Below are positions 2,656-48,494 of a stretch of 62,446 nt of DNA, one piece after another. Every line of letters begins with the position of its first letter. Positions within the stretch are counted from its first letter, which is position 1. Under the pieces are notes generated by a model, which had not been told where the DNA came from, searched no databases, and saw nothing but the letters and a program-made list of their open reading frames with translations. A program made the position numbers and the translations under genes. The stretch comes from an uncultured Chlorobiaceae bacterium. GTDB lineage: Bacteria; Bacteroidota; Chlorobiia; Chlorobiales; Chlorobiaceae. The stretch covers positions 1 to 62,446 of the forward strand of contig CAIWUU010000070.1 in the NCBI GenBank assembly GCA_903915955.1. Direction: 5' to 3'.

Positions 2656-2904
2656 TCAAACAGGTTTGTCAACAGGCTGCATTTCAGCAAGCAGTGTTTC
2701 GGGCGCAATATCCTGCTGGTGAGGCCAGGTAATGGAGCCATTTTTTATCCCTGCCTGATTGAAATAGTTGATGTCACGCAGCTCCCTGAACACTCCGAAA
2801 TCAAGATAGGGCTTGACATCAAAGATACCCTTTCGCCCCGCCATAGTTTCGACGTAAATTTTATAGTCGGGCAGTGGCTTTACTTTTTTGATATCCCAGT
2901 ACAT
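2656..2904 (-). CDS. DUF2442 domain protein
   Basis: An 82-residue protein beginning MYWDIKKVKPLPDYKI. It contains the DUF2442 pattern: a short beta-rich unit, then GVFRELRD, then a terminal GSITWP motif. DUF2442 proteins are small, often sit beside DUF4160 genes in toxin-antitoxin-like pairs, and have been proposed to bind DNA or act as antitoxins, but no function is established. No DUF4160 partner is visible next to it. It lies about 130 bp upstream of hsdM in the same orientation and could be cotranscribed with it. Confidence 0.7.
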   Translation of the reverse strand: MYWDIKKVKPLPDYKIYVETMAGRKGIFDVKPYLDFGVFRELRDINYFNQAGIKNGSITWPHQQDIAPETLLAEMQPVDKPV

Positions 2905-3009
2905 AGTGTGGTTATCATGGGTTGATTTTACTTTTTGCCTGGCCTAAACTACCGAAAATTCATCATAAAGTGAAAGGTGGGCGCGGAGCAATTATGGCAA
3001 GGCATTGAC

Positions 3010-4125
3010 TCAATCCTTCAGCACTCGATCCAGCACGGCTACAACTCTTCCGGCAGCGGCCCCATCCCATTTCTCGGGAATTTTTGAGCGGCTTGTGATG
3101 TGTTGATGTGAACCGGGATGCAGAATGTCGTGAATGCGGCTTGTGATATCATCCTCATCGAGGCCAACCAGCAGGTTGGTGCCAATTTCGATGGTTGCAG
3201 GGCGCGAAGAGCTCTCCATAATGGTGAGGCAGGGAACATTCATGACGGTGGCTTCCGACTGCATCTCTTCAAGGTTGGTGAGGAGCAGCATGGAGTCCCG
3301 GAGCAGCTTCAGGAGTGAGGTGTGTGTTTGAGGTTCGATTACCATTACTCCCTCAATTGCGCTGAACGAGTCGCCCATACCGTGCTGCTGCATGAGTGCA
3401 GCAAGCTCCGTAGCGAGCGGCATGACGACGGTGATTTTCAGGGAAATTTCCTGAATAAGCCGCTGCATCAAGGCAAGTGGCTCTTTACCGGAGAAACGGC
3501 CTGCCGGGCTCAGGAGTACAAGGAGATATTTTTTCGGTTTGATTTCTTTCGGCACTGATGCCGCAGAGTTGTTTGCCTCTTCCATCAGGGCGACAAGGCT
3601 GTCGATGAGAAGGTTTCCGGTAAAAAAGACTTTGTCGTCGGCAATGCCCTCGTTGATCAGATTGTATTCGCCGCTATGCTCACTCACAAAGTGGAGGTCG
3701 GCCATGGAGTCAATGACGACGCGGTTAATCTCTTCAGTGTCGGAACGATCGTAGCTTCGCAGCCCGGCATCGACGGCGGCAACGGGGAGGCCGAGTTTTG
3801 CTGCGGTAATGGCGGCGCCTAAAGCGGCATTGTCGCAGCCGCAGACCAGAACAAGGTCGGGTTGTTCGCTCAGCATGATTTTTTCCATACCGGTCATGGC
3901 CGCAGCCAGTTGTTCAACCGGTGTGCCTTTCGGAAGTGTGATGGTATGATCTGCTTCGTCAAGAGTGAAGCTTGCGGCAAGTTCAGCACTGATTGGTACG
4001 GCGCCTTCGGGGAGGGCAAGCAGCACAACCGGCTGGTAAGTGGTCTGGTTTGTCAATGCTTTATAGAGCGGAGCAAGCAGAAGAGCGCCAGATTTGCTGC
4101 CGGCGGCCAGAAGTAATTTTTTCAC
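3010..4125 (-). CDS. UDP-N-acetylglucosamine 2-epimerase family protein, divergent
   Basis: A 371-residue GT-B-fold protein of the WecB/NeuC family by overall pattern: N-terminal SKSGALLLAPLYKAL, central VDAGLRSYDR...EEINRVVID, and C-terminal SSRPATIEIGTNLLVG. Authentic enzymes interconvert UDP-GlcNAc and UDP-ManNAc for surface polysaccharides. Here the central HRREN-type motif that supplies the catalytic His reads LLSPAGRFSGKE. The nucleotide-binding DSGGIQEE motif reads TNLEEMQSE, and VEAG is VDAG. The fold therefore seems kept while key residues are lost, so catalysis is doubtful. It diverges from the OstA-like gene with 72 nt between start codons. Confidence 0.7.
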   Translation of the reverse strand: MKKLLLAAGSKSGALLLAPLYKALTNQTTYQPVVLLALPEGAVPISAELAASFTLDEADHTITLPKGTPVEQLAAAMTGMEKIMLSEQPDLVLVCGCDNAALGAAITAAKLGLPVAAVDAGLRSYDRSDTEEINRVVIDSMADLHFVSEHSGEYNLINEGIADDKVFFTGNLLIDSLVALMEEANNSAASVPKEIKPKKYLLVLLSPAGRFSGKEPLALMQRLIQEISLKITVVMPLATELAALMQQHGMGDSFSAIEGVMVIEPQTHTSLLKLLRDSMLLLTNLEEMQSEATVMNVPCLTIMESSSRPATIEIGTNLLVGLDEDDITSRIHDILHPGSHQHITSRSKIPEKWDGAAAGRVVAVLDRVLKD

Positions 4126-4197
4126 AGTGAAAACAAAGCTTTGTTACATTGGGGGAAAGCAATTTTAGGGATGCCATTAATCGTTATCTGCCTGGCC

Positions 4198-5130
4198 ATG
4201 CGAAAAGTTTTTTCAGTTCCGTTCCTGATCGCCATTTTGTTTCTGTTTCAGGCCATAATGCTTCCGATGTGGGACTATAATACACTCCATGCGGAGAAAA
4301 AGAAAATTATTCTCCAGCATGCCGATACCCTCGAAGGAGGGGAGGGTGCTGCCGGGAGCTATCGCTCGGTGATTGGTAATGTGGTGTTCAAGCATGACAC
4401 GTTGACTCTGAAGTGCGACAGTGCTACCGATTATGACCAGGAGAACAAGATTGTGCTGAAAGGCAACGTTTTTATTGCCGATAATGCGGTGGAGCTTTAT
4501 GGTGAAAGTGGCGTTTACTATCCCGACAAGGGTGTCGGAGAGTTAAGCGGCAATGTTCGGGGCCGGATGCTGGATAACTCTCTTTCCGGCAAGGCGAAGA
4601 GGGGGGTGGTTAACAGGGTTACCAATCAGATTACGTTCTACGATGATGTGCTTGTCTGGCATGAGCGTCAGCAGATCAGTGGCGATATGATTCTTCTGCA
4701 TCTCAAGGAGGTTGGCCGAAGCGGCAAGCGCAAGAGTATTGATGAAGTTGAGGTACAGGGCAGTGCCTTTTTTGCCGCTCAGGATACCCTTTCTGTTTCC
4801 CCTGTTGTGTACGACCAGTTCAGCGGAAAGAGTATGCTCATTCGGCTGAATGAGAGCTCGAAAATAACCGGAATAACGCTGACCAACCAGGCAGAAAGTC
4901 TCTATCATCTCTACGATGAGAAGCGAAAACCCTCCGGCATCAACTATTCGAGCGGAGATATGATCCGGATGTTTTTTAAGGCAGGTGTTCTCAGCCGGGT
5001 AAAGGTTGTGGGTGGTGTTGAGGGGAAGCAGTACCCGGAGAGTTTTCGGGGCAACAAGGGTATCAATCTTTCAAACTTTCTCTGGAGAGAGAGAGAGAAT
5101 CCGTTTAAACCGCAGAAACGCCTTCCGTGA
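4198..5130 (+). CDS. OstA/LptA-like exported protein
   Basis: A protein of about 310 residues. The start at 4198 (MRKVFSVPFLIAILFLF) gives a clean signal-anchor or signal-peptide segment; an earlier in-frame start at 4141 is less likely. The mature part shows the OstA/LptA beta-jelly-roll pattern of repeated strands: GNVVFKHDTLTLKCDSA, LKGNVFIADNAVELYGESGVYY, LSGNVRGRMLDNSLSGKA. LptA-type proteins form the periplasmic bridge that carries LPS to the outer membrane. Green sulfur bacteria have several OstA-domain proteins, so this need not be LptA itself. Its 3' end runs into a 14-bp inverted repeat. Confidence 0.75.
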   Translation: MRKVFSVPFLIAILFLFQAIMLPMWDYNTLHAEKKKIILQHADTLEGGEGAAGSYRSVIGNVVFKHDTLTLKCDSATDYDQENKIVLKGNVFIADNAVELYGESGVYYPDKGVGELSGNVRGRMLDNSLSGKAKRGVVNRVTNQITFYDDVLVWHERQQISGDMILLHLKEVGRSGKRKSIDEVEVQGSAFFAAQDTLSVSPVVYDQFSGKSMLIRLNESSKITGITLTNQAESLYHLYDEKRKPSGINYSSGDMIRMFFKAGVLSRVKVVGGVEGKQYPESFRGNKGINLSNFLWRERENPFKPQKRLP

Positions 5131-40993: not shown

Positions 40994-41436
40994 CGGTACT
41001 TCCTCAACCGTTCCGGCATCCGGCTAACCATAATTAAATGGATCTGCCGAAACTGCGAATTTTTGAAATTTCTGCATTGCTTGCCTTGTCACTAACAATA
41101 CCTTACTGAAAGTATAGCGAAATAATGTCTGGCCTTCAAAATAGCACAGCAGTAAATATCTGATAACTACTCCGCAACGTGCCTGCTTCCAGCAGTCTCC
41201 TGCTACAATAAAGCGAGCTGTAATCAGATGGTGGACACAACAGTGGTTATACAGAATTGGAGAAACGGCTGTCAGGGAGTGAATCAAAACATGCTCATCG
41301 ATCGCTCTGCAATTTTGCTCAACAGCATACTCGTCGCTTCCTTTTGGCGGATTATAAAATATATATCTCGCCAAAACGGTGATTATTTGTTATCTTTGGC
41401 CATATATAGGCTTTATTATATATAATATAGGCGGTT
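40994..41436. other. intergenic region carrying the ATPase control repeat
   Basis: No gene is supported; the overlapping short frames look random. The right part is AT-rich, with the inverted repeat at 41342-41376 and a TATAAT at 41421-41426 close to the ATPase start. The left part is the upstream region of the Rieske fusion gene. Confidence 0.5.
41342..41376. promoter_or_regulatory. TTTTGGCG...CGCCAAAA inverted repeat upstream of the ATPase gene
   Basis: Perfect 8-bp arms TTTTGGCG (41342-41349) and CGCCAAAA (41369-41376) flank a 19-bp AT-only-rich spacer containing TATAAA. It ends 60 bp before the ATPase start codon. The placement over a promoter-like sequence suggests an operator, possibly for autoregulation. 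The same words recur after the gene in the opposite order. Confidence 0.65.
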
Positions 41437-42894
41437 ATGAGCATAATAAATATTTCTGGAAGAAAAGCAGAAATTAACCTGTTACAGCAAGCATTATCAT
41501 CGGCAAATCCCGAATTCATTGCTGTTTATGGGCGTCGTCGAGTAGGAAAGACCTGGCTCGTAAGGGAGTTTTTTGATGACGCACTATGCTTTGAGCTTAC
41601 CGGCATACATCGTGCTTCGCTGAACGATCAGTTAGCTAACTTTGCCCACGCGCTTGGCAAGGCTGCAGGAGTGTCGCTCTTGCCACAGCGCCCATCGACA
41701 TGGTTTGAGGCATTTGCTCAGCTTGAACAGTTTCTCGATGATCTGCTTTCTCAAGAGGCAGAAATGAAGAGAGTTGTTTTTTTTGATGAATTGCCCTGGC
41801 TGAACACTCCTCGCTCAAAATTTTTATCAGCCCTGGAGCATTTCTGGAACAGTTACGGATCGCGCAAAAATAATCTTGTTCTTGTTGTCTGCGGTTCTGC
41901 TGCATCGTGGATATTGCAACATATTGTGCGCGCAAAGGGTGGTCTTCATAACCGCCTTACCCGGCAAATCCGTCTTTCTCCATTTACTCTTGCCGAAACA
42001 GAGGAGTTTCTTCTGCATCGAGGCATCAACCTCACCCGCTATCAAATTATTGAACTCTTTATGGTTATGGGTGGAGTTCCCTTCTACCTGATGCAAGCAG
42101 AGCCCGGTTATTCAGCAGCACAAATTATTGACAAGGTCTGTTTTTCAGCAACCGGGTTGTTACGATCAGAGTATGACCAGTTATTTGCATCGCTCTTTGC
42201 CGAAAGTGAACATCATAATAAAATCGTCTCGTTGCTGGCCAAAAAGCATAGTGGCATGAGCAGAAACGAGATTGTTGCTGCCTCACATATTACAACAGGT
42301 GGAAGGCTTACTGATATTCTTGAGGAACTGGAAGCATCAGGATTTATCGAGTCGCGCATTCCATTCGGGAAAAAAGAGCATGATATCATTTATCGCCTTA
42401 CCGATGAGTTTACAATCTTTTACTTTGCATGGCTTAAACCTCTCGGCAAAAAAATAACGGAGCAGGGATACTGGATGTCGCGTCAAAGTGATCCGGCGAG
42501 AACGGCTTGGTCTGGTTTTGCTTTTGACACCCTTTGCATCAAGCATGTTCGAGCGTTGAAAGCGGCACTGGGAATTGCCGAAGTGCAAACAAGTGATGCT
42601 CCATGGCGTTATATGCCTGTTAAAGAGTCACCTCCTGGGGGTGCACAGATTGATTTGCTGATCGATCGGCGTGATGCAACGATCAACATCTGTGAGATCA
42701 AATTTTATCAAGGCGAATTTACTCTTGATGCTGCTTACGCTCATGAACTGGGTCGAAAAATAAATGTTTTCCGCCAGGTAACCGGTACACGGAAAAATAT
42801 CTTTCTCACCATGATTACCACGTATGGCGTAACCAATAACGCCTATCGAAAAGAGCTGGTATCGAATGTTCTTACACTGGATGCACTGTTCTGA
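41437..42894 (+). CDS. AAA-type ATPase with C-terminal DUF234 (archaeal-ATPase family)
   Basis: A 485-residue protein. The P-loop GRRRVGKT lies at about residues 31-38, the Walker B VVFFDELPWLN near 110, and the sensor region VVCGSAASWIL follows. The second half has a winged-helix part (IVSLLAKKHSGMSRNEIVAAS...) and the DUF234 nuclease-like domain (FAFDTLCIKHVRALK, IDLLIDRRDATINICEIKFYQGEF), whose D...E-x-K pattern resembles PDDEXK. Such genes are common, mobile-looking and of unknown role. A broken second copy lies at 48236-48403. Confidence 0.85.
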   Translation: MSIINISGRKAEINLLQQALSSANPEFIAVYGRRRVGKTWLVREFFDDALCFELTGIHRASLNDQLANFAHALGKAAGVSLLPQRPSTWFEAFAQLEQFLDDLLSQEAEMKRVVFFDELPWLNTPRSKFLSALEHFWNSYGSRKNNLVLVVCGSAASWILQHIVRAKGGLHNRLTRQIRLSPFTLAETEEFLLHRGINLTRYQIIELFMVMGGVPFYLMQAEPGYSAAQIIDKVCFSATGLLRSEYDQLFASLFAESEHHNKIVSLLAKKHSGMSRNEIVAASHITTGGRLTDILEELEASGFIESRIPFGKKEHDIIYRLTDEFTIFYFAWLKPLGKKITEQGYWMSRQSDPARTAWSGFAFDTLCIKHVRALKAALGIAEVQTSDAPWRYMPVKESPPGGAQIDLLIDRRDATINICEIKFYQGEFTLDAAYAHELGRKINVFRQVTGTRKNIFLTMITTYGVTNNAYRKELVSNVLTLDALF

Positions 42895-42937
42895 ATAACG
42901 GTAACCCCTCTATTTTTCGCGGATAAAAGCTTTATTG

Positions 42938-42971
42938 CGCCAAAACACCTGTTTCAGGTTCGCTTTTGGCG
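42938..42971. repeat. CGCCAAAA...TTTTGGCG inverted repeat after the ATPase gene
   Basis: Arms CGCCAAAA (42938-42945) and TTTTGGCG (42964-42971) flank an 18-bp spacer, 43 bp past the ATPase stop. The same 8-bp words occur before the gene in reversed order, so the gene is bracketed. The following DNA to about 43034 is repeated with changes at 48404-48494. Confidence 0.7.
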
Positions 42972-43068
42972 ACTTATACGTTCAATAATAGCTAATACGC
43001 GGCTGAAAAATCAGTTTTATCCTCTTATTTTATCGTACAGCCCGTTCCGTATCCAAAACATACACATC

Positions 43069-43791
43069 ATGACACAACACGATTTTCCAGATGAGTTGCT
43101 TGCCTTCATCTCCGACAGTGAGATGGCCGAGCTTCAGGATTTTCTTGATTCCGATACCGTGCCTGACGGTGCAATGATTCTTGAGTCTCTCGACGGTTTT
43201 CTTGCTGCGCTGGTTATTGGGCCAGCATCTGTTCCGACAGAAACATGGATGCCTTTGGTGTGGGATATGCCCGATGGTCGTGAAACTCCTGCATTTGAAT
43301 CCGTTGATCAGGCGAACAGAATGACAAAGCTCGTCCTGAAAATGAAGGAGAGCCTCACAATATTCTTTGCCAGTTCTACTGAATTATACTGTCCATTGTG
43401 CATGGAGATTGAACTTGAGAACGAAGAGATCTACAACGATTTTATAAAGTTGTGGGCGACCGGATTTATGGCGGGAATATACTGTAATGAAAATAACTGG
43501 AAACCGATGCTTGACAATGAGGACTTTTTTGAGGAATTCTTAATGCCAATTTATCTGCTTAGTCCCTTTGCAAACAACACCCCGCCACTGCCAACAAAAA
43601 CATTCAATGTGATCAGAGATCTCATTCCTGAATATGTGAACGAGATCCGCAAATTCTGGCTGCCTCGGCACCGGCAAGAAATGGCAAGGGAAAAAGGGGT
43701 AGTGATTGCCAACGAAGCAGACCGGATTGGCCGCAATGAGCCATGCCCTTGTGGCAGCGGGAAGAAGTTTAAGAAGTGTTGCGGGAAGTGA
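43069..43791 (+). CDS. UPF0149/YecA-like protein with C-terminal SEC-C motif (copy 1)
   Basis: A 240-residue protein. The N-terminal helical UPF0149 domain begins with [22 protein letters not shown] and includes MPLVWDM and WATGFMAGI. The last 22 residues form the SEC-C zinc motif, [20 protein letters not shown], which in SecA binds zinc and SecB or the ribosome. The role is unknown. A paralogue of equal length lies at 47505-48227; the two share their layout and almost the same C terminus. Confidence 0.92.
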
Positions 43792-44043
43792 TGGTTCCTG
43801 CCATTCGGTGCGCCCCCGACAAATTATTGACAGTATTTCTCTATTTTGCCTTATTGAGTCTATCGGTATATGTTGTACCCTTATTGTACTCTATATGCGT
43901 CGAATAATTGCTCGGTTCATTTTTCAGTAAGTCAGAATAGGAATTTTGTGATGACGGACTGTAAAAGGTTATAAAAATTATAGTTGTCCTATAAGTAAAT
44001 CGTACGCACGAAATTCTTTTTATGAAAAAGAACGATTTAAATC

Positions 44044-44295
44044 ATGCCCCCGGTTAAATTTCAACAGCTCTCAAATTTTATCTGGTTGGTTGCCGAACTG
44101 CTGCGCGGGCCTTACCGTCTGCTTCTGTACGAAGGGGTGATGTTGCCGCTTACGGTACTGCTCTGCTTCGACTGTGTGCTGGAGCCAACCAAAGAGAGAA
44201 CTCTGAACAGACACGCAGAGCTTACTGCCAAGGAGTTGCCCGGTATTGAAGCGATCCTGAATAACCTGGATTTGCTGAAGGAGGTGACGGAATGA
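44044..44295 (+). pseudogene. N-terminal fragment of a type I hsdM fused to unrelated tail
   Basis: An 83-codon frame. The first ~55 residues (FIWLVAELLRGPYR...VMLPLTVLLCFDCVLEPTKE) match the N-terminal helical region of type I methyltransferase M subunits, which normally read NFIWSIADLLRG...LPFTVLRRLDCVLEPTK. The SAM and NPPF motifs are missing. The tail (ELTAKELPGIEAILNNLDLLKEVTE) does not resemble HsdM and overlaps the next gene by 4 nt. It therefore appears to be a chimera created by a deletion that joined hsdM to the upstream part of the AlbA_2 gene region. Confidence 0.75.
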
Positions 44296-46154
44296 ATGCG
44301 CTGGAGCTGCTCGAGCGCCTAAACCTTCTTGATGAAAATGAAAGCATCGAAGCGAAGCAGGCGCGTGAGATCGGAAAATCGGTTCTTGAAACTGTTTGTG
44401 CTTTCTCGAACGAACCTGGTTTGGGCGGCGGCTGGATACTTCTTGGCGTGATTCGCGAAGAGTTAGCATTGTTTCCTGCCTATGAGACCCAAGGTCTCGA
44501 AAATCCTGATAAGATCAGCGCTGATCTGGCAAGTCAGGCAGCCTGTGTCTTCAACCAACCCTTGCGGCTGGAAATCAACACCGAAATTCTTGGCGGAAAT
44601 ATAGTTGTCGTCGTTTTCGTTCCAGAAGCGCCATCGCAGGATAAACCCATTTATTTTAAAGCTCAGGGCCTTCCCAGAGGTGCGTTTCGGCGTATCGGAA
44701 GCACAGACCAACGTTGTACCGAAGATGACTTGATCATACTATATCAAGGCCGCCAGCAGGAAAGCTTTGATTCCGGTTTATTGCCAGATGCCAGTTTTGA
44801 TGATTTCTCCCCCGAAGCCATTGCTGACTTTCGTCTGGCTCGTCGGGAGGTCAATCCTGATGCAGAAGAACTGCGTTGGAGTGACAATGAACTGATGCAA
44901 GCTCTTGGTTGTTTGCGTCGCAATGAGCAAGCGCAGTGGGTGCCAACTGTAGCCGGGCTGCTTCTCTTTGGTAATTCGGTCGCCTTGCGTCGTAGTTTTC
45001 CGATGACTCGGGTTGATTATATCAGAGTTCCAGGTCGTGAATGGGTACCTGACCCCGAACGTCGTTTCGATACTATCGAGATGCGTGATTCTCTGTTTCG
45101 GCTTATCCGTCGGGCCCAAGCGGCTATTCTTGATGATTTGCCCAAGGCCTTTGGGCTGGAAGAAGGTGCTTTGCAGCGTCAGGATATGCCGGTTGTTCCA
45201 CAGCGGGTCATTCGAGAGGCCGTGGTTAATGCTCTGATGCACCGCAGCTACCGGAGTTATGCACCGGTGCAGATCATCCGTTACTCAAACCGCATTGAAA
45301 TCCGTAACCCCGGTTTTTCGCTCAAGTCGCCGGAACACCTTGGAGAGCCGGGTTCGTTGCCTCGCAATCCAAGAATTGCTGCCGCCTTACACGATACTCG
45401 CTTTGCTGAGACGAAGGGCAGCGGCGTGCGTGTCATGCGCGAAATGTGCGAACAAGCGGGGCTGGCCCCACCCTTGTTCGAATCTGACCGAGCCAATGAT
45501 CAATTCATCGTTCGTCTCTTTTTTCATCACTTTCTTGGACCGGAGGATTTGCAATGGCTTGCCCGATTCAAAGATTTGAGCCTTTCTGATGCTGAGGCGC
45601 GGGCACTGGTTGTTACCCGAGAAGTCGGAGCTATAGATAATGCGACTTACCGCGAAATTAACAAGGTTGACTCTCTAACTGCTAGTCATGCGTTAAAAAA
45701 GCTGCGTGATGCTTCGTTGCTCGTTCAAAAAGGGCGCGGTTCAGCTACCTGGTATCAGCCTACCGAATGGTTTCTTGGGACAACGACAGATTTATCTGCT
45801 AACCCGAGTGGCTTATCCAGTAACCCTGGCACCTTATCCAGTAACCCAGGTGTCTTATCCAGTAACCCTAAGCGTTGTGCAATTCTGAATGAATTGCCTG
45901 GTGAACTTGCTGCCCGTGTTGGTGCCTTGGGCAAACGACGGCCGCCTGAAGAGGTATGCGAACTTGTCGTTGCATTGTGTCGTCAACGAATTTTTCGTGT
46001 TGAGGAACTGGCGAGCCTGCTTGCACGTACTCCGGAAACTGTTCGTCAGAGCTATCTTCGTCCGCTTTTGCTTGCTGGGCGTATTTCAATGATCCGCCCT
46101 GAGGTGCCCAATGATCCGGAACAGGCGTATCGAACGGTGGCGGGAAAAGCATGA
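44292..46154 (+). CDS. AlbA_2 (Schlafen AAA_4) domain ATP-binding protein
   Basis: A 620-residue protein. The N-terminal AlbA_2/AAA_4 domain (ESIEAKQA...GGGWILLGV...GLENPDKI) is followed by an HATPase_c_4-like segment with REAVVNALMHRSYRSYAPVQIIRY, NPGF and GSGVRVMREMC. C-terminal winged-helix parts follow. Proteins of this kind are often annotated as transcriptional regulators and are frequent in defence islands and type I R-M loci. A heptad repeat separates the helices near residue 505. The gene is intact between two hsd fragments. Confidence 0.85.
   Translation: MNALELLERLNLLDENESIEAKQAREIGKSVLETVCAFSNEPGLGGGWILLGVIREELALFPAYETQGLENPDKISADLASQAACVFNQPLRLEINTEILGGNIVVVVFVPEAPSQDKPIYFKAQGLPRGAFRRIGSTDQRCTEDDLIILYQGRQQESFDSGLLPDASFDDFSPEAIADFRLARREVNPDAEELRWSDNELMQALGCLRRNEQAQWVPTVAGLLLFGNSVALRRSFPMTRVDYIRVPGREWVPDPERRFDTIEMRDSLFRLIRRAQAAILDDLPKAFGLEEGALQRQDMPVVPQRVIREAVVNALMHRSYRSYAPVQIIRYSNRIEIRNPGFSLKSPEHLGEPGSLPRNPRIAAALHDTRFAETKGSGVRVMREMCEQAGLAPPLFESDRANDQFIVRLFFHHFLGPEDLQWLARFKDLSLSDAEARALVVTREVGAIDNATYREINKVDSLTASHALKKLRDASLLVQKGRGSATWYQPTEWFLGTTTDLSANPSGLSSNPGTLSSNPGVLSSNPKRCAILNELPGELAARVGALGKRRPPEEVCELVVALCRQRIFRVEELASLLARTPETVRQSYLRPLLLAGRISMIRPEVPNDPEQAYRTVAGKA
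45792..45875 (+). repeat. four 21-bp coding repeats (LSSNPGx)
   Basis: Four in-frame 21-bp units encode LSANPSG, LSSNPGT, LSSNPGV and LSSNPKR. The DNA core ttatccagtaaccc is nearly identical in the last three. It forms a linker between the two C-terminal helical parts of the AlbA_2-type protein and is prone to copy-number change. Confidence 0.9.
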
Positions 46155-46288
46155 TGTGTCGATATGGTACAGAAAACGGATTATTGCATTGTTGCTGAAG
46201 GTCAGAGAATGAGCACTAACACATTTATGTCACAATAGAAAAAGTGCTTTACTGCTACGCAGCAGCAAAAAACGGAATTCATGGTTGA

Positions 46289-47466
46289 GCATTTTTATCA
46301 GCGTACCCGGTAAAAGATAGGCGGTCAAAACTTGCCGAGGAGCGCGGAGAAGGGAGTAACAGTTATCTGCCGACGCGAAAATACGCAGTGATTATTGATG
46401 AGGCACATAGTTCGCAATCGGGCGAAACCGTCACTGAGCTTAAAGGTGTGCTGGGAGGCAGTGAGTTGCGCCAAAAAGCCAGGGAGATGGCCAAGGAAGA
46501 GGGCGAAGTGGAGCTGGAGCGTCTGTTTCGCTCCATGGCCAAGCGTGGATGTCAGCAACATATCAGCTTTTTTGCCTTTACCGCCACGCTGAAGCACAAG
46601 ACTTTAGCCATCTTTGGTCGAAATGGTGAGCCGTTTCACCGCTACACCATGCGGCAGGCAATTGAGGAAGGCTTCATCATGAATGTGTTGGCCAATTACG
46701 TGACCTACAAAACCTACTACCGGCTTATCAAAAAGGCGGAGGAGGACCCGAATGTGGAGCGCAAAAAGGCTGCCAAAGCACTGCCGATCACAAACAAATG
46801 AATGCAATTCTTGATGGTGCAGTTGCGCGGTTTCAGCACCTGCAAAACACGGAAGAGGAGGAGGCTGAGCTGTGGCGCGGCAAGGCCTAGGCTTTCCGCA
46901 ATCTGTACAGTTTTTTAAGCCAGGTGATTCCCTATCAGGACAGCGATTTAGAGAAGCTATTCACCTACTTGCGCCATCTGGCATTGAAGCTGCCAAAACG
47001 GAAGAGTGGCGCTGGATACCAGTTTGATGAAGAGGTTGAACTCGACTATTACCGTTTGCAGAAGATCAGTGAGGGTTCGAACAGTTTAAGTGAAGGCTTT
47101 GCCAAGCCACTTGATGGACCTCGCGAAGTGGGAAGCGGTATGGTGCATGAGGAGGAGGTGTCACTCTCCCGGCTCATTGATCTCATCAACGAGCGCTTTG
47201 GTGGTGACCTGAACGAAGCAGATCAACTCTTTTTCGATCAGATTGCAGAGGCGGCAAGTCAGAATGAAGCTCTCAAGAAGGCTGCCGGAGTCAATTCACT
47301 CGATAAATTTCAGCTTGTGTTCAGGCAAGTTCTGGAGTCATTGTTTATTGAGCGCATGGAACTCAACGAAGAACTTTTTGCCGACTTTATGGGTAAACCA
47401 GAATTGCAGGAGCTGGTGTCGAAGTGGCTGGGAAGTCAGGTTTATGAGCGAATGAGCGGAGGATAA
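46289..47466 (+). pseudogene. remnant of a type I restriction endonuclease R subunit (hsdR)
   Basis: Frame 46289-46801 encodes DRRSKLAEERGEGSNSYLPT, VIIDEAHSSQSGE (helicase motif II, DEAH), FTATLK and RQAIEEGFIMNVLANY, all typical of HsdR. A new frame from 46798 starts at ILDGAVARFQHLQ. It is broken by a TAG at 46888-46890 and continues as AFRNLYSFLSQVIPYQDSDLEKLF to 47466, the HsdR C-terminal helical region. The nuclease domain and motif I are absent, and the segment between the two frames, normally several hundred residues, is deleted. It cannot encode an active restriction subunit. Confidence 0.9.
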
Positions 47467-47504
47467 GGGAACCCTAAAGATTGCCAGCATAATAAACCAT
47501 CGCG

Positions 47505-48227
47505 ATGATGATACAGAATGAATTTTCAGACTACAGTCCGCTTTATATTACTGACAGTGAACGTGAGGAGCTTCAGGAGTTTCTTCTTTCGGATGATCTT
47601 CCTGAAGGAACCATGACCATTGATACTCTTGAGGGATTTTTTACTGCACTGATCATTAGCCCGGTAACCACTCATCCCAAGGCATGGTTTCCGTTGGTGT
47701 GGGATATGAGTGGTGGTGGAGAAGCAGCGAAATTTGAGAGTCTGGAACAGGCGAAGCGTATTACGGAACTGCTGACAAAGATGATGACCAGCATTGTTGT
47801 TATGTTGACGAATTCTCCTGATGATTACGTGCCACTTTCCGATACGATCAGGTATGAGAGTGATGAAATCAGGGATTCTTATAACAAACTATGGGCAACG
47901 GGATTTATGATCGGCGTTAGCCACAATCAAGCTGAGTGGGAACCGATCTTTTCAGATGAAACGGCCTCAGCCCTGTTGTCTGCGATTAGTGCGCTCAGCG
48001 TCAGGCCGGATGATTCTGTTCAGTTACCAACAAAGAAGTTCAGAGCGTTCTGGGAGATAGTGCCTGATTGTGTGCGGGCGCTCAATGAGTACTGGTGCCC
48101 TGTCCGGTGTAGTGAAACTGAAAGGGTAAAAGGGATGCTCCTGGGAACCCAAAGCGAGAAAGTTGGACGCAACGAGCCTTGTGCCTGCGGCAGTGGGAAG
48201 AAGTTCAAGAAATGCTGTGGGAAGTGA
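47505..48227 (+). CDS. UPF0149/YecA-like protein with SEC-C motif (copy 2)
   Basis: A 240-residue paralogue of the 43069 protein, with the same order of motifs: ITDSEREELQEFLLSDDLPEGTM, PLVWDMSGGGE, LWATGFMIGV, QLPTKKF and [20 protein letters not shown]. It differs at many positions, so the duplication is not recent or the copies came separately. It starts after an hsdR remnant and is followed at once by the broken ATPase copy. Confidence 0.92.
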   Translation: MMIQNEFSDYSPLYITDSEREELQEFLLSDDLPEGTMTIDTLEGFFTALIISPVTTHPKAWFPLVWDMSGGGEAAKFESLEQAKRITELLTKMMTSIVVMLTNSPDDYVPLSDTIRYESDEIRDSYNKLWATGFMIGVSHNQAEWEPIFSDETASALLSAISALSVRPDDSVQLPTKKFRAFWEIVPDCVRALNEYWCPVRCSETERVKGMLLGTQSEKVGRNEPCACGSGKKFKKCCGK

Positions 48228-48235
48228 GGTTTTTG

Positions 48236-48403
48236 CATCAGCATTTTTGCTCTTTCTGCCTGAAGCCCTTCGCTTTGTCCAGTTTCTCGATGCGATGCCA
48301 GACACGAAGAACGTTATATTTTTTGATGAATTGCCTTGGTTCAACATTCATCGATCAAAGTTTTTATCAGCCTTGGGATCGCGCAACAATAATCTTGTTC
48401 TTG
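48236..48403 (+). pseudogene. deleted second copy of the AAA/DUF234 ATPase
   Basis: The DNA encodes FLLFLPEALRFVQFLDAMPD, VIFFDELPWFNIHRSKFLSAL, GSRNNNLVL. It matches residues ~95-150 of the 41437 ATPase, including Walker B FFDELPW. The P-loop half is absent. A 21-bp gap removes the segment that in copy 1 reads EHFWNSY. After CTTGTTCTTG the sequence jumps directly to the 3' flank (CGCCAGAA...), so the rest of the gene has been lost. Confidence 0.8.
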
Positions 48404-48494
48404 CGCCAGAACACCTCTTGGGAGCGCTTTTGGCGACTTCTGCCATAATGGTTAATGCGCCGCCGACAGATCAGTCTTCTCCTCTTTTTTTATC
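48404..48494. repeat. second copy of the ATPase 3' flank
   Basis: It aligns with 42938-43034: CGCCAGAA (48404-48411) and TTTTGGCG (48428-48435) match the inverted repeat with one change. The following tract (ACTTCTGCC...CAGATCAGTCTTCTCC) parallels that of copy 1. The final codons of emrB (48452 onward, minus strand) lie inside this repeat. Confidence 0.75.

Follow-up and report, generated by a model that had tools for sequence, protein, structure and literature searches.

What reads a short DNA word that stands in two inverted pairs around a single gene is the question raised by a 62,446-nucleotide stretch of an uncultured Chlorobiaceae genome, here called the window. The gene encodes an AAA+ ATPase, and the words are ordered TTTTGGCG-19 bp-CGCCAAAA on its 5′ side and CGCCAAAA-18 bp-TTTTGGCG on its 3′ side. 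A first-pass annotation, made from the sequence alone, had proposed either the operator and terminator of an autoregulated gene or recognition sites of the encoded nuclease-like ATPase at the ends of a mobile unit, and it had placed all four 8-bp words and both spacers exactly. From the comparisons below, the words are probably DNA landing sites through which the ATPase controls its own promoter.

Inverted half-sites around the ATPase gene

The window contains 13 copies of the word compared with 4.2 (sd 1.9) in shuffled sequences, and the suspicion that the paired words are no accident is borne out by the rarity of the pairs, each of which occurs once in the 2.52-Mb genome, at the ATPase gene: TTTTGGCG-N10..40-CGCCAAAA has a single occurrence upstream of it, CGCCAAAA-N5..35-TTTTGGCG has a single occurrence downstream, and reversed control patterns have no matches in the same genome. 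Each word is the core of a half-site of about 15 bp, TTTTGGCG-nn-TTATA, with its TATA-like end pointing outward, and the extended half-site TTTTGGCGNNTTATA has two copies genome-wide, both at the ATPase gene. Two inverted half-sites, TATAnnnGCCAAAA-N17/18-TTTTGGCnnTATA, make up the basic unit, which spans the promoter, and the downstream pair repeats its geometry (Table 1). A fifth half-site, C, which overlaps a -7-like box, was overlooked by the first-pass annotation because it differs from the word by one base; sister loci (L019, L020, L021) carry GGCG at this position.

Table 1. Features of the ATPase locus and of its decayed second copy, in window coordinates.
Feature	Position	Strand	Description
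Word copy	41342-41349	+	
Word copy	41369-41376	-	
Word copy	42938-42945	-	
Word copy	42964-42971	+	
Half-site A, TTTTGGCGGATTATA	41342..41356	+	Extra upstream half-site
Half-site B, TATATCTCGCCAAAA (read on + strand)	41362..41376	-	Left member of the promoter-spanning pair B/C
-7 box, TATCTTTG	41391..41398	+	Match to Bacteroidetes-type TAnnTTTG; promoter by consensus only
Half-site C, CTTTGGCCATATATA	41394..41408	+	Right member of B/C, 17 bp from B
ATPase gene, 485 aa	41437..42894	+	PADLOC PDC-S27; AAA+ ATPase (PF01637), winged helix, PD-(D/E)XK-like C-terminus
Predicted winged-helix domain, residues 257-321	42205..42399	+	AlphaFold2 model; weak HTH_34 match
Predicted recognition helix, residues 289-300	42301-42336	+	AlphaFold2 model
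PD-(D/E)XK-like motif, D406...E420-x-K422	42652..42702	+	Near-invariant columns; modelled strands 403-411, 415-421
Half-site D, TTTATTGCGCCAAAA (read on + strand)	42931..42945	-	Left member of the downstream pair
Half-site E, TTTTGGCGACTTATA	42964..42978	+	Right member of the downstream pair, 18 bp from D
Decayed ATPase fragment	48280-48403	+	Remnant of the same gene, beside emrB
Mutated downstream pair, CGCCAGAA...TTTTGGCG	48404-48435	+	Decayed third pair, beside the ATPase fragment

Judged by the decayed fragment and its mutated pair, the stretch from 41 to 48 kb of the window looks like a partial duplication. The gene that follows the ATPase, of the UPF0149/SEC-C type (43069-43791), matches the PADLOC candidate PDC-S12, as does a second UPF0149/SEC-C paralog at 47505-48227. 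Between the two lie a Schlafen/AlbA_2 gene (44292-46154) and a broken SWI2/SNF2 gene; the region from 43069 to 48227 has the look of a small defense island derived from partial duplication. In several Chlorobium genomes (L022, positions 4455-4560, and L129-L135), the next downstream gene belongs to a family with a MTGQARELCTAFEGSRALASGEL start and has its own inverted TATCCGGATA words upstream, and is perhaps another self-regulated gene.

The encoded ATPase

The protein matches the PADLOC profile PDC-S27 nearly end to end (E=1.1e-189; residues 5-485 on profile positions 3-473 of 474). PDC-S27 is a putative defense candidate in which an ATPase is fused to a PD-(D/E)XK domain (PMC12988326), and it ranks among the commonest putative defense genes of archaea and is abundant in rumen genomes (PMC12988326, PMC13356809); experimental validation is still pending for most PDCs (PMC12988326). 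Roughly 8,000 PDC-S27 genes have been reported. A literature search returned no description of an operator, regulation, or mechanism for PDC-S27.

The domain make-up of the window ATPase is that of the family. In Pfam, PF01637 (ATPase_2) and related AAA families pass, and D406, E420, and K422 of the fused PD-(D/E)XK domain are conserved and lie on modelled strands; Walker A, Walker B, and the D406...E420-x-K422 motif are almost invariant among 34 homologs. NCBIfam gave no match. The DUF234 label of the first-pass annotation found no counterpart in Pfam, where PF03008 is absent even at E<=5; the record of a Wolbachia phage homolog reads 'archaeal ATPase, fused to C-terminal DUF234 domain'. In an AlphaFold2 model with a mean pLDDT of 91.6, helices at residues 257-269, 276-283, and 289-300 followed by two strands form a winged helix, for which the Pfam match (HTH_34) is weak.

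One architecture, many words

A scan of contigs yielded 42 relatives of the ATPase, and the operator was examined in 34 homologs, from Chlorobium to Lachnospiraceae. The upstream layout is the same across them and the word is lineage-specific: other Chlorobium use GGCC, many Bacteroidetes GGCT, Flavobacterium GGCG, Saprospiraceae TCGCG, L046 and the Spirosoma locus L053 GCCATAAG, and a Lachnospiraceae CTGGATGAAT. Words agree within a locus, downstream copies included, and change between lineages, and the word follows the gene, not the host. The first-pass annotation had held that homologs without such words in their flanks would count against it, and this is what the homologs show for the exact word but not for the architecture, in which another word takes the same arrangement.

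Several measures describe this conservation. Perfect arms of at least 8 bp occur upstream of 30 of the 34 homologs (5.0 expected) and downstream of 14 (2.5 expected), and a blind scan for the best inverted repeat reached a score of at least 12 of 14 in 32 of 34 homologs, compared with 11 of 108 neighboring genes and 3 of 102 shuffled sequences. When the promoter-proximal half-site of each homolog, chosen by hand, was used as a probe, an upstream partner was found in 34 of 34 at a spacing of 16-19 bp, in most cases 17 or 18. The pairs scored 24-30 of 30, a total to which the probe contributes its own 15 points at most loci; shuffled downstream regions scored at most 21. The downstream pair exceeded the 99% shuffle limit in 10 homologs, most at the same spacing and one (L053) by an alternative register, and its core word is visibly kept in L020 and L021; overall it is found in about a third of homologs and is absent from about two thirds.

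A later search with the family profile added seven members, all of which have the upstream pair, six scoring at least 12 of 14 and one 11. Among plasmid and phage relatives, the upstream pair is clear in those of Butyrivibrio, Emticicia, Vibrio, and Rhodothermus and in L159-L161, weaker in the relative from Wolbachia phage WO, and not evident in four (L155, L164, L166/L171, and L169). In Wolbachia phage WO (L170) and in L156, the PDC-S27-like gene has head and other structural genes of the phage on either side and is preceded by alternating CCGCGG-type words. Distant homologs on two haloarchaeal plasmids (L172, L173) have GTCATTATCG words near the start codon, inverted in L172, which are possibly an archaeal form of the PDC-S27 operator.

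Promoter overlap and a residue linked to the word

The sequence TAnnTTTG is the -7 promoter element of Bacteroidetes. It lies inside the B-C stretch, transcribed by hand, in 25 of 31 homologs, a count that applies the Bacteroidetes consensus and assumes its use in Chlorobium, and TTTG belongs to the right half-site in nearly all of those 25. Inverted repeats conserved in homologs thus lie over the gene's own promoter, placed by consensus only, as in an autoregulated operator. A protein sitting on B/C would cover the -7 box, so repression rather than activation is the favored reading.

Of all protein columns, residue 290 shows the strongest association with the base at word position 8, exceeding the 95% limit of permuted maxima among homolog pairs below 60% identity, with an incomplete correction for descent. 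This residue, which falls in the predicted recognition helix of the AlphaFold2 model, is R or G in most loci with GGCG or GGCC words and is T in 11 of 12 GGCT words. The winged helix holds 6 of the top 20 associated columns, an excess that is not significant (p=0.06). A cruder measure, co-variation of the whole operator, assessed by partial Mantel tests of half-site against protein columns with a similarly incomplete correction for descent, was driven by outliers and gave no winged-helix signal.

Alternative readings of the words

The paired words might instead be the ends of a mobile unit that the ATPase-nuclease recognizes in order to move its own gene, the other proposal of the first-pass annotation. 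In its favor, the gene sits at unrelated places in close relatives, and the protein is distantly TnsC-like by sequence (E=0.003). At the 3′ end of asd, an insertion common to three genomes (L024, positions 2800-4515, L010, and L012) has ~30-bp direct copies of the asd end on both sides, and the locus is uninterrupted in several relatives. At the L022 site, where relatives L130 and L131 lack the ATPase gene, a duplication is not evident. Beside emrB, where the gene is missing from G009 and G013, both were considered as pristine empty sites, but deletions became the preferred explanation because only the right half of the downstream hairpin survives in each; the left breakpoints also differ, and although G009 is arguable as an empty site, an inverted repeat spanning its junction, a ragged deletion fits these loci best. 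Alignments with three relatives in other contexts begin exactly at 41342, a position that was entertained as a unit boundary and abandoned, both because weak similarity further left can be seen by eye in L021 and because conservation of the operator would produce an identical alignment edge. The proposal that nuclease sites mark mobile-unit ends is not supported by these comparisons: independent copies do not share the same ends on both sides, about two thirds of homologs being without the downstream pair, the loci compared have no conserved ends other than the operator, and no transposase or integrase gene accompanies the ATPase gene. Self-mobilization through the words is accordingly considered unlikely, and ordinary horizontal transfer would fit the distribution of the gene.

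That the words simply form hairpins in RNA or DNA, as terminators or leader structures, and are read by no protein, would suit the folding of both pairs (z about -3 to -4) and the inner stem formed by the D/E spacer, which is kept in five Chlorobium relatives tested despite base changes. Such hairpins, however, would not require half-site C to be oriented as A and to change with the same word, nor would a terminator need the outward TATA or a spacing conserved at 17-18 bp. Because B and C lie on either side of the -7 box, a B-C stem would fall outside the transcript; the downstream element is followed by no long or classical T-run, and an Rfam scan of the window found one tRNA and no RNA family at the words. 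Hairpins as the whole explanation therefore appear rather improbable. The downstream terminator of the first-pass annotation is a different matter, being plausible in the window's lineage, with its inner hairpin and convergent genes, but the element also copies the operator. A separate host regulator, with the ATPase merely its target, could also read the words, given that binding by the ATPase is putative and its winged-helix Pfam match weak. The sites, however, are private to the ATPase gene in the genomes examined; in the L042 genome, for instance, the exact half-site TTTTGGCTACTTATA occurs three times, always around that gene. One genome (G189) has two ATPase paralogs (L139, L154) with two different words, and across many hosts the gene has its own word in each and no conserved neighbor, which together make an outside regulator very improbable.

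Proposed self-repression

The reading preferred here, to which a probability of roughly 70% is assigned, is that the ATPase uses its winged helix to bind the words, thereby repressing its own promoter, with D/E possibly serving as a hairpin terminator as well. Of the functions first suggested for the words, the operator of an autoregulated gene is the one that is well supported, as both the pairing of half-sites across the promoter and the distance between them are conserved in homologs. The words would then be half-sites of a dedicated operator serving the enclosed gene. The ATPase, as a dimer or larger assembly, most likely binds pairs of 15-bp half-sites whose inner edges are 17-18 bp apart, or about three helical turns from center to center. 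Occupation of the main pair, B/C, which straddles the promoter and covers the -7 box, would repress transcription of the ATPase gene, and site A and the D/E pair may strengthen or loop the complex. In the window's lineage, D/E probably has a second job as a hairpin terminator between ancestrally convergent genes, and such a role between the ATPase and emrB genes, convergent in L020, is likely.

A further and doubtful extension is that the operator doubles as a sensor, in which the ATPase-nuclease would be drawn off its own sites by a titrant, for instance invading DNA or a changed nucleotide pool, lifting repression of the gene and turning on the nuclease, as might occur during phage infection. 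If true, the lineage word would be a fast-changing self tag that tells resident from incoming copies. More generally, a conserved PDC-S27 operator whose spacing is fixed and whose word varies by lineage offers an experimental handle on binding, stoichiometry, repression, and release, and it suggests that a defense effector may be its own regulator while its DNA specificity shifts among close relatives.

Comparison with known systems

The window ATPase resembles PDC-S27 in its full-length profile match and identical domain make-up; the papers retrieved on PDC-S27, however, describe neither an operator nor any regulation, and its antiviral activity has candidate status only. Toxin-antitoxin and other autoregulated modules encode a protein that binds inverted repeats at the module's promoter. 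The layout at the ATPase gene is similar, with the module's own ATPase as the putative binder, but no antitoxin gene was seen, a single effector-like ATPase-nuclease is the presumed regulator, and even close relatives differ in their repeat word. BrxR/CapW (WYL) regulators bind inverted repeats over the promoter of a defense-type gene, an arrangement also present at the window ATPase, yet they are encoded by a separate gene, and none was found here.

Structural comparisons point to DNA-binding proteins of similar build. Foldseek neighbors of the ATPase model include AAA+/winged-helix DNA binders such as the Orc1/Cdc6 initiators (2QBY and others), which also combine AAA+ and winged-helix domains and use repeated inverted DNA sites; identity is about 15%, however, and the window ATPase adds a PD-(D/E)XK domain and has its sites at a promoter rather than an origin. 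The best solved structure by fold is the Pyrococcus abyssi Walker-type ATPase PABY2304 (2QEN; E=2.7e-12), which differs in having 17% identity and 350 residues compared with 485 in the window ATPase. Overall, the words form a probable self-binding operator of a putative defense ATPase-nuclease, conserved in geometry and diversified in sequence.
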